Origin: an uncultured Planctomycetales bacterium
Lineage (GTDB): Bacteria; Planctomycetota; Planctomycetia; Isosphaerales; Isosphaeraceae
DNA: 63,581 bases
Direction: 5' to 3'
Assembly (NCBI GenBank): GCA_903926465.1
Contig: CAIYJE010000109.1
Span: 1-63,581 of the forward strand
Shown: positions 28,441 to 34,840 of the stretch, piece by piece
Layout: each line of letters opens with the position of its first letter
Position numbering within the stretch: the stretch's first letter is position 1
Program-made: the position numbers and the translations under genes
Notes under the pieces: model-generated
Seen by the model: the letters and a program-made list of their open reading frames with translations, nothing else
Database searches by the model: none
What the model was told of the DNA's origin: nothing

Positions 28441-28469
28441 TTGACCTGGCTTTTCGTACACACTAAACT
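28441..28469 (+). promoter_or_regulatory. Sigma-70-type promoter of the Y-family polymerase gene
   Basis: TTGACC (28441-28446), a 17-bp spacer and TAAACT (28464-28469) form a near-consensus promoter. The ATG at 28477 is only 7 nt after the -10 box, so transcription would start at or next to the A of ATG: a leaderless or nearly leaderless mRNA. No Shine-Dalgarno precedes the ATG, which agrees. Confidence 0.6.
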
Positions 28470-28476
28470 CCCGTCC

Positions 28477-29721
28477 ATGGGAAACTCCAGGCGAGACACG
28501 GCGATCGGCCATCTGGATGCCGACTGTTTTTACGTCTCGGCAGAGCGGGTGCGTGACCCGTTTCTGTGCGGCAAGCCCGTGGGCGTGCTGGGCAACCAGG
28601 GCGCCTGTGTTATTGCCAAGAGTTATGAAATGAAGGCGGCCGGCGTGAAGACCGGCATGCCGATCTGGGAGGCCATGAAACTGTGCCCCGGCGGTATCTA
28701 TATCAAGCGAGACTTCCGCTGGTATGAGGTTTTGAGCCGGCGCATGCTTGAGGTGATGCGTACCTGCTCGCCGCGAGTCGAGTATTACTCTATTGATGAG
28801 TTCTTCTTTCAGGCGGTCCCGCAAAGCCCCGGCATGAGTTTGCAAGATTCGGCCCTGGCCATTCGTGACCGGGTTGCGCAAGAGGTTGGCGTGCCGGCCA
28901 CCATTGGCATTGCTCGGTCTCGCACCCTGGCCAAGCTGATCTCAGATTCCGCCAAGCCGTTTGGGGCTCTGGCGGTGCTAGACCCGGAGGCAGAGGCAAG
29001 CCTGCTGGCGGAACGGCCGGTCTCTGAAATCACCGGAATTTCTGGCCAGCGAGAGAAGCGGCTCTTACCCTGGGGTATCCGGACATGCCTCGATTTGGCG
29101 CGGGCCGACCGGCGACTGGTGCGCAGCCTGCTCACAAGCTCTGGAGAAACCCTTTGGTGGGAACTCAATGGCGAGCCAGCACAGCCTATTCGGGCAAACC
29201 GCCCACTCCACAAGGCAATTTCTCGTGGGGGCAGCTTTGGCGAAACGGCCGTAGACCCCGCCGTGCTCTACGCCTGGCTGGTGCGGAACATCGAACGCCT
29301 GATCGAGGAACTGCACTATCATGAAACTCTTGTTGGTCGGCTGAGCGTTTGGGTGGGCTACAACGACGGTCGGTCTGGTATCGGCCAGACCACCCTTGCC
29401 GTACCCACCGACCGTTTCGACCAACTGGTTGAGGCGGCCCGCTCATGCCTGCGTACCGCCTGGATTCCCCGCGCAGCGGCCCAGCGCATGCACCTGATTG
29501 CCGAGAACCTGCACAAACGCGAACCCAGACCGCTCGGGCTGTTTGAGTCGGCCACCGAACACAACCGCGCGGAGGCCGTAGCCAAGGTCAAACGCCAGGT
29601 CAATGACCGAATTGGCCGGTTCGCGCTCCGGAGCGCGGCCACGCTCCCACTGAAATCGATCTACAAAGATACCAGCAACGGTTACGACATCTGCGATATC
29701 AGGGGCAAAACCTGCTTCTAA
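28477..29721 (+). CDS. Y-family DNA polymerase (UmuC/DinB-like)
   Basis: The ATG at 28477 gives 414 residues. The catalytic carboxylates are in GHLDADCFYVSAERV (Asp14, Asp16) and YYSIDEFF (Asp107, Glu108). The little-finger region includes KAISRGGSFGETAVD, reminiscent of the UmuC/ImuB C-terminal side. The helix-hairpin-helix region is GISGQREKRLLPWGIRTCLDLAR. It lacks a recognisable beta-clamp QLxLF motif at the end (last residues NGYDICDIRGKTCF), but by eye this is not conclusive. The enzyme performs translesion synthesis. It is preceded by a near-consensus promoter and followed 125 nt later by a divergent SRAP-like gene, a combination suggesting a DNA-damage module. Confidence 0.9.
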   Translation: MGNSRRDTAIGHLDADCFYVSAERVRDPFLCGKPVGVLGNQGACVIAKSYEMKAAGVKTGMPIWEAMKLCPGGIYIKRDFRWYEVLSRRMLEVMRTCSPRVEYYSIDEFFFQAVPQSPGMSLQDSALAIRDRVAQEVGVPATIGIARSRTLAKLISDSAKPFGALAVLDPEAEASLLAERPVSEITGISGQREKRLLPWGIRTCLDLARADRRLVRSLLTSSGETLWWELNGEPAQPIRANRPLHKAISRGGSFGETAVDPAVLYAWLVRNIERLIEELHYHETLVGRLSVWVGYNDGRSGIGQTTLAVPTDRFDQLVEAARSCLRTAWIPRAAAQRMHLIAENLHKREPRPLGLFESATEHNRAEAVAKVKRQVNDRIGRFALRSAATLPLKSIYKDTSNGYDICDIRGKTCF

Positions 29722-29733
29722 TCTTGGAGGCAA

Positions 29734-29788
29734 TTTCAAAACCTGAGACAGGCACCTGGCAGACCAAGATCCAGTCCCGGTTTTGAAA
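29734..29788. repeat. 10-bp perfect inverted repeat between the polymerase and SRAP-like genes
   Basis: TTTCAAAACC (29734-29743) and GGTTTTGAAA (29779-29788) are exact complements 35 nt apart. The left arm runs into AACCTGAGACAGGCA, the motif shared with 779-792 and 11458-11472. It could be a terminator of the polymerase gene, a regulator site for the downstream gene, or a REP element. Confidence 0.65.
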
Positions 29789-29845
29789 CGGCTTCTTACG
29801 GTTTCACCAACTCACCAAAACCTTGTCACAGATTTTCGTAACGCC

Positions 29846-30313
29846 ATGTGCCTTGGAATTTCACTGGCCCGGACAGAGCTTCCCCTCGAACTGATTGCTC
29901 GCCACGGGCTCGATCGTTGCGCGCATGCACGCGGCGGCGAGAAAGAGATTCAGTTCCTGTTCAGAGACAGAGACCCCCGCCTGCCCGTCTGGCAAGACGG
30001 CCAGCTTCAAATCATGCGCTGGGGCAACAGCCATGGCCAGAGCCGGTTGTTGCCACGCACCGGCTGGACCTGGCAGGAAACGATCGATTCTGGTGGCTGG
30101 AAAAATCTGGACGCCGTTCCGGTTGATATCCCCGCCTCGCTCGGCTTTGAGAGAGGTGTCTGGTACCGTATCCGCCAGGGAATTCGTGGCCTGCTGGTCC
30201 TCGATGAACAGAACAGCCATGTCGTTTACATGATCTGCGAGCCATCCACCCACTATTATCGCGTGATGACCCGCTCTGATCGGATGCCCATGCTCATTGA
30301 TGAACAGATCTGA
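29846..30313 (+). CDS. Divergent SRAP-like (HMCES/YedK-type) protein
   Basis: The ATG at 29846 places Cys as residue 2 (MCLGISLA), as required for SRAP proteins, whose Cys2 links to abasic sites in single-stranded DNA. The protein is 155 residues, shorter than the usual 190-230. Further SRAP-like features in order are LQIMRWGNSHGQ (compare MRWGLIP), a possible Glu/Trp region RGVWYRIRQG, and the C-terminal RSDRMPMLID (compare HxRMPVIL). The conserved catalytic His before RMP is replaced by Ser, and no NARSE-like motif is clear. So it may be a stripped-down or inactive relative, or a related DNA-damage protein. Its place directly after a translesion polymerase supports a damage-tolerance role. 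The family call is inference. Confidence 0.6.
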   Translation: MCLGISLARTELPLELIARHGLDRCAHARGGEKEIQFLFRDRDPRLPVWQDGQLQIMRWGNSHGQSRLLPRTGWTWQETIDSGGWKNLDAVPVDIPASLGFERGVWYRIRQGIRGLLVLDEQNSHVVYMICEPSTHYYRVMTRSDRMPMLIDEQI

Positions 30314-31607: not shown

Positions 31608-32207
31608 ATGCCCAACACTACAAGCGTGAGTCTTGTTGCCGGCATGGCGGAGCGTCCACACGATTCAAATGTGTGGGCTCAGTTTGTTTTGACTTATGGC
31701 GAGCAAGTTGTTTACTGGTGTATGCGGTACGGCCTGCAGGAAGCTGATGCACGAGATGTCGCGCAGGACGTATTGCTCCGCTTCTGGCGGCAAGCCACTC
31801 GGCTAGACTCGGGTGGTCCTCCCAGACGTTTTAGAGCCTTCCTTAAAACCCTGACTCATGCGGCCTGGGCCGACTGGTGCGATCAGTTCGAACCACGTGA
31901 GGCTGCTCGTGGCGGTACGGAGTACTTGAGCCTTCTGCGACAGCTACCTGCCCGCGAAGAATTGCTGACCAAGCTTGAGGAAACGTACGACGCCGAGCTA
32001 CTCCAGTTAGCCATGGCGAAAGTGGAAGGCCGGGTTGAACCGCACACATGGGCGGCATTCCGCATGCTGGCACTCGAACATCGACCAGGCCGTGAAGTGG
32101 CAGACCAGCTAGGGATGGCAATCAACACCGTTTTTGTTGCGCGAAAGAAAGTCCAGCGGCTGATCCGCGAGACGATTCACCAGCTTGAAGAGTCTTCTGG
32201 TTCATGA
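31608..32207 (+). CDS. ECF-type RNA polymerase sigma factor
   Basis: This 199-residue protein has region 2 with VYWCMRYGLQEADARDVAQDVLLRFW (the conserved DxxQDVF-like core binding helix). Region 4 is ALEHRPGREVADQLGMAINTVFVARKKVQRLIRE, a helix-turn-helix for the -35 element. Its 3' end overlaps the start of the kinase gene by 4 nt (ATGA). Planctomycetes encode many ECF factors coupled to Ser/Thr kinases, and by analogy the kinase or its N-terminal zinc domain probably controls this sigma factor. Target promoters are not visible in this window. Confidence 0.93.
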   Translation: MPNTTSVSLVAGMAERPHDSNVWAQFVLTYGEQVVYWCMRYGLQEADARDVAQDVLLRFWRQATRLDSGGPPRRFRAFLKTLTHAAWADWCDQFEPREAARGGTEYLSLLRQLPAREELLTKLEETYDAELLQLAMAKVEGRVEPHTWAAFRMLALEHRPGREVADQLGMAINTVFVARKKVQRLIRETIHQLEESSGS

Positions 32208-34840
32208 CGACCATCTCCGCTTGCCCGGACCAATCTACCTGGCTCAGATTTCTAGAGGAACAGGTTCACGAGCCAGAGCTCAGCGTGCTGGGGAACCATC
32301 TCGATGCCTGCCCGGCCTGCACCAACGAAATGGGGAGGCTGGCCGGAAGCTGGAGCTTGGACGGCGGCCGCCATCCTGCGCCGCTCGCGCTCGCGACTGC
32401 CACGCACAACATGCTGCAGGAGCTGGCGGCAAATCCCGACCAGCTCTCACGAGCTGCCGATGCCGCGGCATTCGACAGATTGTTGCCTGAAATTCCCGGC
32501 CTGACCGATTTTGTCAGAGTTGGGCAGGGTGGCATGGGGGTTGTGTACCGCGCCCAGGAAATCAACCTGAATCGGACGGTGGCGGTCAAGGTCATGTCCG
32601 GTTCTGGACTGGCATCGACTTCCAGTCGACTACGCGCAGAGCGAGAGGCTTTGACGCTGGCCCGGTTACAGCACCCGAACGTGGTCCAGATCTTCCGGTC
32701 GGGCGAAGCCAATGGCTTCCCTTACCTGATCATGGAATGGATTCAGGGGGGCACGCTGCAAGATCGTATTTGTCAGAAACCTTTGGATCCGATGGAAGCG
32801 GCCACCCTTGTGCGTGACCTGGCCCTGGCGATTGGTGAAGCACACGCGCTGGGAATCATTCATCGCGACATCAAACCCGATAACGTGCTGATGATGCCCT
32901 CCAGCAGACCGGACCGCCCACCGGTTCCCAAGCTGGCCGATTTCGGCCTATCCCGGCCTGATGACGCAACCCCGGGACTTACCGGGGTAGGGTTGATCGT
33001 GGGGACCCCCAGTTATATCGCTCCTGAACAGACCAGCCTGGATTCCACCTTGGGCGAGGTTGGCCCGGCAACCGATATTCATGGATTGGGTGCCACGCTG
33101 TATGCCCTGATCTCCGGCCAGCCACCTTACAACGGCCAAACCTCTCGGGAGTCGCTTCTGCGTTCCGCTTCGGGCGTGGTAACGCCACTCGAATCGCTTT
33201 GCCACGGTCTGTCTCTCGACCTGAAAACCATCGTTGAGAAATGCTTACAGCACTCGCCCCAACGCAGGTATCGTTCGGCGGGCGACCTGGCCGACGACCT
33301 GACGCGGTTTCTGGCAGGAGAGCCGATTCTGGCCCGGCCAATCTCCAAGCCCGAACGACTGGCCAAATGGGCACGCCGAAAGCCTTTGGCAGCCGCAGTC
33401 ACTTTACTTTTGGGCCTGGGTGGAATTGCTGGCATTGTGGGCACAAGTTACCATCTCCACTCCATCTCGTTCGCCCTCACGGAAAAAGATCAAGCGTTAG
33501 ACACAGCAAAGCTGGCCGTGGAGCTTGGAAAACGCACTCAAGACCAGTTGCGTGCGTCACTCGGCTCGCTGACCAACGACGTGGTTGACCGCATGATCCA
33601 GCGCGGGCCGGCGCTCGATGCGGGTGACCGAGATTTCCTCCGATCGGTCCGAGAAATGTATCTCAAACTCCCCCTGGAGTTTGACCCGCTCGAAGCCCAT
33701 AAATATCGCGCCAACGGACTTTTTAAACTGGCCAACCTGTTCTTTCAGATCGAACAGTATGACGAGGTTCACACCTGCGCGAAGGCGGCCCTGGCCGATT
33801 GTGACGCAGCGCTTGCTCTTGACCCAGAAGATCGTCAGATCGCAAAAATGCGACTGAAGCTCTTACTCTCTGATCACCATGCCTTGTTCCGCTCTCAGCG
33901 TTTCCCAGAAAGCGAACAGGCGGCACGTCGATTGATTGACGAGAGCCAATGGATTGCTCAAATTGACCCAGCTTCCGGGAACTCCGTTGCCCATGCTCTG
34001 ATCAGCCTTGGCATCAATCTGGCGGAAACCAACCGATCCGAAGAAGCCATCGGCTTCGTCTCCAAGGGCATAGCTCTCTTTGAGCAAATCCGCCGGGAAT
34101 CTCCCGATAACGATGCCCGATGGCATTCCATGGCAATGGGCCACTATAACGCGGCTCTTTGCCTCAGCCATGCGGGGCAACCCGAAGGCCAGAAGGCCCA
34201 GCTACTCACCATGCTAAGCGTGGCCGAGGAAGCTGCCCAAAAATTCCCAGCCAAGCGATTGAACTTTCTGAACGTCCAGCAAATTGGCCTCGGCTTCCTG
34301 GCCGGAACCTATTTACGAGAAGGTCGGCTTCAGGAATCCAAGGAACTCGTCGATCGGGCTTTGACACTTTCCCGGATCGCTCTTGAATCTCAGCCCGACC
34401 AAGCGTTACTCGTGAAGTTGCGTGACGGGCTGATTGACTCAGCCATTCTTGAGTACGAGATCTGCAAGCAGGAACATCGTCCACTCGATGCCGAAGCCGC
34501 ACTCCAGGAAGCCGTGCAGGCCGCCAGACAGAACAGGCTGGAAACGCCCGCTATCTATTACCATAGCCACCGCCTGATGGAGAGCCTTCGCCAAATTGCG
34601 GCCCTGTTCGAGCAAACGAACCAGGCCGAGGCTGCGCGTCGGGCTTATGAAGAGATCATTGAGGTTGCCCGCCCTTGGCTCAATTTTGAGCGACACACCA
34701 CCGCCGTGCGAGAGACGATGAACAATGCGATGGATCGCCTGATCTCGCAGGCTTCCCTTGAAGGAAATCACGGCCGTGTCGCCAGCCTGACAGCCGAGAG
34801 AATCCAGCAGCAAATGGGCAGGCCCGACGAACAAAAGTAA
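32204..34840 (+). CDS. Receptor Ser/Thr protein kinase with zinc-finger N-terminus and TPR C-terminus
   Basis: This 878-residue protein begins with an anti-sigma-like zinc-finger (zf-HC2-type) segment: Cys7, His32, Cys36, Cys39 in NHLDACPACTNEMG. The kinase domain (about 100-370) has the Gly loop GQGGMGVVY (107-115), Lys129 in VAVKV, HRDIKPDN (220-227), DFGLS (246-250) and GTPSYIAPEQ. One transmembrane helix spans 394-412 (LAAAVTLLLGLGGIAGIVG). The remaining 450 residues are helical, with TPR-like repeats, and face the other side of the membrane. Overlap with the ECF sigma gene suggests the zinc domain binds the sigma factor and kinase activity releases it, a planctomycete-type transmembrane signalling pair. 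The mechanism is inference. Confidence 0.94.
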   Translation: MTTISACPDQSTWLRFLEEQVHEPELSVLGNHLDACPACTNEMGRLAGSWSLDGGRHPAPLALATATHNMLQELAANPDQLSRAADAAAFDRLLPEIPGLTDFVRVGQGGMGVVYRAQEINLNRTVAVKVMSGSGLASTSSRLRAEREALTLARLQHPNVVQIFRSGEANGFPYLIMEWIQGGTLQDRICQKPLDPMEAATLVRDLALAIGEAHALGIIHRDIKPDNVLMMPSSRPDRPPVPKLADFGLSRPDDATPGLTGVGLIVGTPSYIAPEQTSLDSTLGEVGPATDIHGLGATLYALISGQPPYNGQTSRESLLRSASGVVTPLESLCHGLSLDLKTIVEKCLQHSPQRRYRSAGDLADDLTRFLAGEPILARPISKPERLAKWARRKPLAAAVTLLLGLGGIAGIVGTSYHLHSISFALTEKDQALDTAKLAVELGKRTQDQLRASLGSLTNDVVDRMIQRGPALDAGDRDFLRSVREMYLKLPLEFDPLEAHKYRANGLFKLANLFFQIEQYDEVHTCAKAALADCDAALALDPEDRQIAKMRLKLLLSDHHALFRSQRFPESEQAARRLIDESQWIAQIDPASGNSVAHALISLGINLAETNRSEEAIGFVSKGIALFEQIRRESPDNDARWHSMAMGHYNAALCLSHAGQPEGQKAQLLTMLSVAEEAAQKFPAKRLNFLNVQQIGLGFLAGTYLREGRLQESKELVDRALTLSRIALESQPDQALLVKLRDGLIDSAILEYEICKQEHRPLDAEAALQEAVQAARQNRLETPAIYYHSHRLMESLRQIAALFEQTNQAEAARRAYEEIIEVARPWLNFERHTTAVRETMNNAMDRLISQASLEGNHGRVASLTAERIQQQMGRPDEQK

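Follow-up and report, generated by a model that had tools for sequence, protein, structure and literature searches.

A miniature SRAP-fold protein regularly paired with one subgroup of Y-family DNA polymerases in planctomycetes

Contig CAIYJE010000109.1 from an uncultured Planctomycetales bacterium, analyzed here as a window of 63,581 nucleotides, carries two consecutive genes on its forward strand: a Y-family (translesion) DNA polymerase of 414 amino acids (28477..29721) and, 124 bases after its stop codon, an open reading frame (ORF) of 155 amino acids (29846..30313). The product of the second gene, hereafter mini-SRAP, is a new variant of the SRAP proteins, and in planctomycetes it regularly accompanies one polymerase subgroup. 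SRAP proteins are present in all domains of life and are reputed for crosslinking themselves to abasic sites and thereby holding off mutagenic bypass. Computation gives the mini-SRAP the SRAP fold, a conserved N-terminal cysteine and acidic residue, and a regular polymerase partner; engagement of abasic sites is plausible on these grounds. The role somewhat favored here is that of a dedicated lesion-engaging subunit of this planctomycete Y-family polymerase subgroup, which would aid bypass.

Identification of the mini-SRAP

The ORF is far beyond chance, as homologues occur across the genomes of the family and two models show the SRAP fold. Full-length homologues with 55-72% identity (best per genome) are found in most genomes of the family to which the window genome belongs. 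An earlier note, made from the letters of the window, had pointed to a Met-Cys start, to MRWG and RMP blocks in the SRAP order, to a serine replacing the conserved histidine, to the lack of a NARSE motif and to the polymerase just upstream, all of which hold: MRWG covers residues 57-60 and RMP residues 146-148, Ser144 stands two positions before Arg146 at the place of SRAP His160, Thr72-Gly73-Trp74 is found at the spacing of the absent NARSE motif, and the preceding gene is a real Y-family polymerase. The kinship with SRAP that the note proposed stands on the fold of the two models and fails on the profile check, since PF02586 does not match the protein, an outcome the note itself had named beforehand as a refutation.

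Searches by sequence remain silent. Pfam, NCBIfam, PHROGs, and PADLOC hold no family for the mini-SRAP at E<=10. In Pfam this applies to Peptidase S24 (the UmuD/LexA-type autopeptidase) and to YolD; for YolD, the profile silence is compatible with a distant relation. The S24 domain seen at one locus (L048) belongs to an upstream LexA gene. PF02586 gave no match in the window genome in a profile search in which 4 of 14 control profiles matched, and PDB sequence searches with the single protein and with a profile (A2) recognized no SRAP. The hit of profile A2 to beta-lactamase inhibitory protein II (E 0.0016-0.003) covers 41 columns of a repeat protein and is taken as chance. A viral origin of the mini-SRAP was also considered and rejected: pattern scans of IMG/VR returned only one 27-residue match (L051), phage records none, and BFVD nothing convincing.

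The fold comes from structure prediction. With an input of 14 sequences, the window's own and 13 from genome contigs, AlphaFold produced five models spanning pLDDT 66.1 to 86.6, the best of them (86.6) with a pTM of 0.83. When this model is compared with the PDB by Foldseek, the top five matches are SRAP chains (probability 0.89-1.00; E 0.012-0.12, none at E<=0.001), and the remaining 45 listed rows have a probability of 0.11 or less. In VIA-align 2, all 15 listed entries are SRAP proteins (Z 8.4-9.7), among them HMCES, YedK, 1zn6, 2f20, 2aeg, 2bdv, and 2icu, the last five being named as SRAP in passages of PMC3765255. A second model, built for a Gemmataceae homologue 50% identical to the window protein (pLDDT 89.0), again yields 15 SRAP proteins out of 15 listed VIA-align entries, at Z 9.3-10.8. 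Its Foldseek result is weaker, with SRAP at ranks 1, 2, and 4 (probability 0.98, 0.99, and 0.80) and the other listed rows at 0.08 or less; every row with a probability of at least 0.80, for either model, is a SRAP.

Both VIA-align listings cover 129-145 aligned residues with an rmsd of 3.5-4.1. In each search, 14 of the 15 entries align from the second residue of both model and chain onward, and the alignments reach the end of the model. The structural matches stop near residue 170 of the 222 residues of YedK, and the C-terminal part of SRAP is therefore missing. On the strength of these predicted models, the mini-SRAP can be regarded with confidence as a divergent, shortened SRAP-fold protein.

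Co-occurrence with one polymerase subgroup

The family sample consists of 45 related genomes, including that of the window. The mini-SRAP is present in 41 of them (in G003 as a contig-end fragment), and 40 of these 41 also have a close polymerase (contig-end fragments in G018 and G035). G015 is the sole one-gene case among the 45; its mini-SRAP lies some 240 bases short of the end of a contig, and a close polymerase was not seen. None of the four genomes without mini-SRAP has an intact close polymerase: the matches in three of them reach just about 30% identity, and in G026 a polymerase remnant with three stops is left. Within one genus (g5), G006 has both genes and G007 neither. The same relation is seen in a phylum sample, in which the mini-SRAP occurs in 14/392 genomes and the polymerase, at E<=1e-70, in 9/294: all nine polymerase genomes have the mini-SRAP, and all 14 mini-SRAP genomes have the polymerase.

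Most pairs are also physically linked. Polymerase sequence, in some cases fragmentary, lies next door in 43 of the 48 family loci fetched and in 12 of 12 full-length loci of a second family; of the five other family loci, L003 and L005 have the two genes 52-65 kb apart, L004 has them on different contigs, L020 at a distance of 2.7 kb, and L012 meets a contig end. Among the 53 adjacent pairs that were measured, 43 run in the same direction, -4 to 195 bases apart, and 10 are divergent, with 59-77 bases between the aligned starts. The polymerase lies away from its mini-SRAP in G017, G025, G039, and G041, extra mini-SRAP copies in G030 and G040 again have polymerase sequence next door, and both genes are broken at L135. 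One locus (L043) is too near a contig end for its pairing to be judged. The link to the polymerase suggested in the earlier note is strongly supported by this co-occurrence and co-loss in related genomes, and a functional partnership of the mini-SRAP with one planctomycete polymerase subgroup can be stated with confidence.

Canonical SRAP genes or fragments are found convergent to a paired mini-SRAP, within about 100 bases, at three places in G040 (L124, L125, L136).

Active-site positions

Residues were compared across 65 homologues, of which 49 are close, 12 belong to the second family (61 planctomycete rows together), and four are proteobacterial. These rows exclude duplicates (L031-L040, and L041, which is the same place as L126), fragments (L045, G003:C557), the broken L135, the partial or diverged paralogues L064-L068, and L044, with two copies containing long inserts. 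The direct comparison with the canonical SRAP profile is weak, so that the residue equivalences below follow from spacing and not from superposition. In hhalign, a mixed profile places GFER near the FYEW of canonical SRAP and DRMP onto HDRMP; the planctomycete profile by itself aligns the DRMP block only.

Cys2 (codon 29849..29851, + strand) occupies the position of the SRAP nucleophile, in agreement with the alignment counts and with VIA-align matches that start at residue 2. It is present in the window protein, in 41/49 close, 11/12 second-family, and 2/4 proteobacterial homologues (52/61 planctomycete rows), and is not invariant in the subfamily. Glu102 (30149..30151, +) would correspond to SRAP Glu105, based on gap-free spacing from the IPA motif and its place near FYEW in the mixed-profile alignment. 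The residue here is acidic in 47/49 close, 12/12 second-family, and 4/4 proteobacterial sequences, or 63 of 65.

The two other catalytic places have changed. Thr72-Gly73-Trp74 (30059..30067, +) would lie at SRAP Asn75-Ala76-Arg77, since its gap-free spacing to Glu102 equals that between Asn75 and Glu105; a conserved asparagine is not found at this position, which is threonine in 48/49 close, 1/12 second-family, and 3/4 proteobacterial sequences. Ser144-Asp-Arg-Met-Pro148 (30275..30289, +) matches SRAP His160-Asp-Arg-(Met/Arg)-Pro164 in a register anchored on R-x-P. The position of His160 holds serine in 41 of the 49 close homologues, otherwise alanine, asparagine, or glycine; in the second family it holds tyrosine (9), asparagine (2), or histidine (1), and a histidine follows one position later in 6/12. 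In this register the catalytic histidine is replaced in 60/61 planctomycete rows. The altered catalytic residues announced in the earlier note can be recognized in the putative changes of His to Ser and of Asn to Thr, but Cys2 and the Glu105 position are mostly retained, and altered need not mean dead.

Work on YedK helps to interpret this pattern. According to passages of PMC9436759, Glu105 ranks next to Cys2 in importance, with E105D only modestly impaired and N75A close to normal at internal sites; the step in which His160 acts is ring opening and not Schiff-base formation, and a C2A variant still forms the Schiff base. The residue pattern of the mini-SRAP would be expected to fit retained capture chemistry together with poor opening of the abasic (AP) sugar. 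His136, found in 46/49 close and 12/12 second-family sequences, could be an acid that has moved. A role of Cys131 as second active cysteine was dismissed, as this residue is present in 49/49 close but in 0/12 second-family and 0/4 proteobacterial sequences.

In genus g18 (L127-L130, G033-G036), Cys2 is replaced by serine or alanine and the polymerase still adjoins. Canonical SRAP (PF02586) is found in 9 of the 45 family genomes, namely in 3/4 of g18 and 6/41 of the others. Since g18 is a single lineage, this contrast is no more than suggestive. At L012 and L136 the start of the mini-SRAP is ambiguous or cut.

The polymerase and its C-terminal tail

The polymerase gene contains the IMS (6.9e-38) and IMS_C (1.8e-12) domains of Pfam, and its top bit score among the libraries scanned is to PHROG 1268, a DNA polymerase family (1.3e-73). 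Its acidic positions D14, D107, and E108, which we take to be the catalytic ones, are retained and invariant across 8 aligned polymerases. The PHROG match raised the idea of a phage origin, which finds no support because identity to the phage and plasmid polymerases among the matches listed is only 24-33%.

The last 22 residues of the protein, ending in IYKDTSNGYDICDIRGKTCF (29653..29718, +), are a candidate docking tail. In a comparison of 53 partner polymerases, some of them closely related, this ICDxxxKxCF tail has invariant Y, D, I, C, D, K, C, and F residues in 53/53, and the first D of DICD in 52; the set excludes the broken or partial L125, L135, and L136 and the unlinked G017, G025, G039, and G041. 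These eight positions are invariant even though the whole polymerases of the second family and the Gemmataceae locus drop to 47-57% identity with that of the window. A tblastn search with the 40-aa tail against plasmid and phage collections gave nothing at E<=10. UmuC binds its partner. For YolD-linked polymerases, passages of PMC6511836 describe conserved tails linked to the partner. The ICDxxxKxCF tail would probably dock the mini-SRAP.

Proteobacterial relatives

More distant relatives are encoded on plasmids of Methylophaga, Pseudomonas, and Nitrosomonas, with a profile link to the planctomycete proteins of 98.4% probability (E 9e-15). The proteobacterial rows have a Met-Cys start in 2/4 and an IHxRWP motif, resembling the His-containing SRAP block, in 3/4. 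In Methylophaga thalassica, the genes for LexA, the polymerase, and the mini-SRAP form an overlapping row, in which lexA precedes and overlaps the polymerase gene. The Methylophaga polymerase, partner of this other branch, lacks the ICDxxxKxCF tail.

Two of the proteobacterial relatives on plasmids (L046:5028-5438 and L050:3983-4387) directly follow antitoxin or toxin-antitoxin-type genes and not a polymerase.

Proposed function and alternative explanations

In the lesion-engaging role proposed for the mini-SRAP, removal of the initial methionine would expose Cys2, backed by Glu102, in the pocket that captures the abasic-site aldehyde in YedK and HMCES, possibly on single-stranded DNA. Because a His160 counterpart is lacking, opening of the AP sugar ring would be expected to be slow, and the engagement of lesions loose or reversible, or a reaction with ends already opened, instead of hours-long shielding. 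The mini-SRAP would then hold the lesion for the partner polymerase, or deliver it, probably docked through the invariant C-terminal peptide, so that the damage could be bypassed. In a bolder version, offered tentatively, the pair would be a planctomycete two-subunit translesion polymerase equivalent to Pol V. A stripped SRAP would take the place of UmuD', and its N-terminal cysteine would anchor the polymerase to abasic or aldehyde lesions, coupling capture to bypass, unlike the suppression exerted by HMCES.

Several observations weigh against a lesion-engaging SRAP subunit. SRAP profiles fail to recognize the protein (hhalign against canonical SRAP at E 0.003-0.005, probability under 10%), and the other four AlphaFold models of the window protein stand at pLDDT 66-78. 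The SRAP-invariant Arg4, Asn37, and Arg77, presumably DNA-contact residues, have no counterpart in the mini-SRAP alignments. Cys2 has been lost in lineages with the polymerase next door (Ser/Ser/Ala/Ser in g18, Phe in L060, Ser in L030, Tyr in L132). Pairing is also imperfect: L125 has an intact mini-SRAP beside a broken polymerase, unpaired and mostly diverged or partial copies (two in L044, L045, L064-L068) show no polymerase match in the stretches examined, both L044 copies lack Cys2 and have no polymerase match in 10 kb, and in the proteobacterial branch a close polymerase was found on 1 of 4 plasmids, the plasmids and not the chromosomes having been searched. Finally, canonical SRAP crosslinks suppress translesion synthesis according to parts of PMC10250235 and PMC9436759, which is awkward for a role in promoting bypass.

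The unpaired copies have contexts of their own. Those of L044 (4710-5378, +; 5669-6574, -) have diverged, contain long inserts, and lie beside genes that by eye resemble ribosomal-protein genes. L064-L068 are diverged or partial paralogues from three second-family genomes with no polymerase match nearby, and L066 and L068 begin by eye with Met-Cys.

The alternative that survives best, though doubtful, is a purely structural polymerase accessory like UmuD' or YolD, in which the SRAP fold serves as a protein-binding or DNA-holding subunit, Cys2 is a relic, and no abasic-site chemistry takes place. It would account for the regular pairing with a polymerase subgroup, the changed His160 and Asn75 positions, and the persistence of the polymerase where Cys2 is gone (g18, L030, L060, L132), and it has a precedent in the YolD partners of polymerases with conserved tails (passages of PMC6511836). 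A relic, however, is hard to square with Cys2 being retained in 52/61 and the Glu105 position being acidic in 63/65, and a serine or alanine at position 2 would not remove the free alpha-amine, as in the YedK C2A variant that makes a Schiff base (passages of PMC9436759).

An HMCES-like abasic-site shield that restrains its own polymerase, its covalent crosslink blocking mutagenic bypass until needed as an off-switch and not a recruiter, is improbable. Retained Cys2 and Glu105 positions would suit it, parts of PMC10250235 describe canonical SRAP crosslinks that block translesion polymerases, and the mini-SRAP could stand in for canonical SRAP, which was not found in the window genome and occurs in 9/45 family genomes. 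Against it, 60/61 planctomycete rows have another residue in place of the histidine that accelerates ring opening in YedK (in the putative register, with a histidine one position later in 6/12 of the second family), a shield should have no need of a single polymerase subgroup as constant partner, and the losses of Cys2 leave the pairing intact.

That the two genes are functionally unconnected neighbors, held side by side through common descent within one bacterial group, is very improbable: the strong pairing data do come from non-independent genomes of one phylum, and unpaired diverged copies exist (L044, L064-L068), but pairs persist when divergent or unlinked (G017, G025, G039, G041), the extra copies in G030 and G040 also adjoin polymerase sequence, both genes are absent together within one genus (G006, G007), and remnants are seen where the other gene has been lost or disrupted (G026, L135).

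Upstream elements and neighboring genes

Upstream of the polymerase gene (28441..28465, +) lies TTGACC...ACTA, a promoter-like element that includes a degenerate TGNNC-N4-GTACA dyad; a similar element is found at the polymerase gene of relatives. The start at 28441 assigned earlier to the polymerase falls within it; the TTG is likelier to be part of a promoter-like -35 box, and ATG 28477 the likelier start. With three mismatches allowed, the element pattern matches the window site and the polymerase upstream region in 4/5 other genomes searched, with two extra matches in G000; a reversed control pattern has two matches over six genomes.

Regulation by LexA could be envisaged. LexA (PF01726) is present in 10/10 genomes tested, and none of their full-length mini-SRAP genes has a LexA DNA-binding match within 60 kb on its contig. 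The dyad TGTYC-N4-GTNCA occurs exactly in 15 of 34 family polymerase upstream regions, which are related sequences, against a mean of 0.036 and at most 2 in 500 single-base shuffles. TGTTC-N4-GTGC is found upstream of lexA in 4/5 family genomes and 0/4 lexA-like genes of the second family, a count made without L164 (a mis-cut stretch) and with L158 and L169 outside the scan. The window's own copy of the dyad is degenerate, and damage-induced expression of the pair therefore remains a lead.

The regions upstream of lexA in L162, L163, L166, and L167 share a conserved block that includes TGTTCTCGCGTGCGCTAG and CCTGTGTACATTAG and is a candidate for the LexA site of the family. Further along the window (31608-34840), a 199-aa ORF resembling an ECF-type sigma factor is followed by an 878-aa protein-kinase-like ORF, as judged by eye from their translations.

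Comparison with known systems

The neighborhood of SRAP and mutagenic polymerases is not new in itself. Passages of PMC3765255 described in 2013 SRAP genes beside umuDC, dinB, and imuB, with conserved Cys2, Asn, Glu, and His and a size of 220-260 residues, and their proposal of a role beside bacterial mutagenic polymerases rested on gene neighborhood. The novelty claimed in the earlier note is limited in this respect; the stripped-down, regularly paired form appears new, and no description of a miniature form was found in the titles and abstract openings of open-licence literature on SRAP/YedK/DUF159 and planctomycete LexA or translesion synthesis. A miniature SRAP that current profiles miss and that is a nearly regular partner of a translesion polymerase makes the task of the SRAP fold beside bacterial mutagenic polymerases testable. 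It also makes testable which parts of the active site serve capture and which delivery, because His160, Asn75 and, in some lineages, Cys2 have apparently been removed while the polymerase was kept.

Compared with SRAP proper (PF02586; E. coli YedK, human HMCES), the mini-SRAP shares the predicted fold from residue 2 to its end (Z 8.4-10.8), Cys2, the acidic Glu105 position, the W-G of the RWG block, the Arg-x-Pro of the HDRMP block, and the neighborhood of a mutagenic polymerase. It differs in having 155 instead of 220-260 residues, in stopping shortly beyond the HDRMP block (near residue 170 of the 222 in YedK), in lacking counterparts of His160, Asn75, Arg4, and Arg77, in having no SRAP profile match, and in being tied to one polymerase subgroup.

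Like UmuD' and the YolD partners, the mini-SRAP is a small protein encoded with a Y-family polymerase that has a conserved C-terminal tail; its predicted fold is that of SRAP and not the UmuD/LexA peptidase or an SH3-like fold, and the ICDxxxKxCF type of tail was not found in plasmid or phage records. GeoPolY-like ImuB-C / LexA / PolY operons, reported also in Planctomycetes in parts of PMC6511836, differ in that the partner here has a SRAP fold and that lexA adjoins only in the Methylophaga relative. Shared by these operons and the mini-SRAP loci are an active Y-family polymerase and its small, standalone partner, with lexA alongside in some cases.

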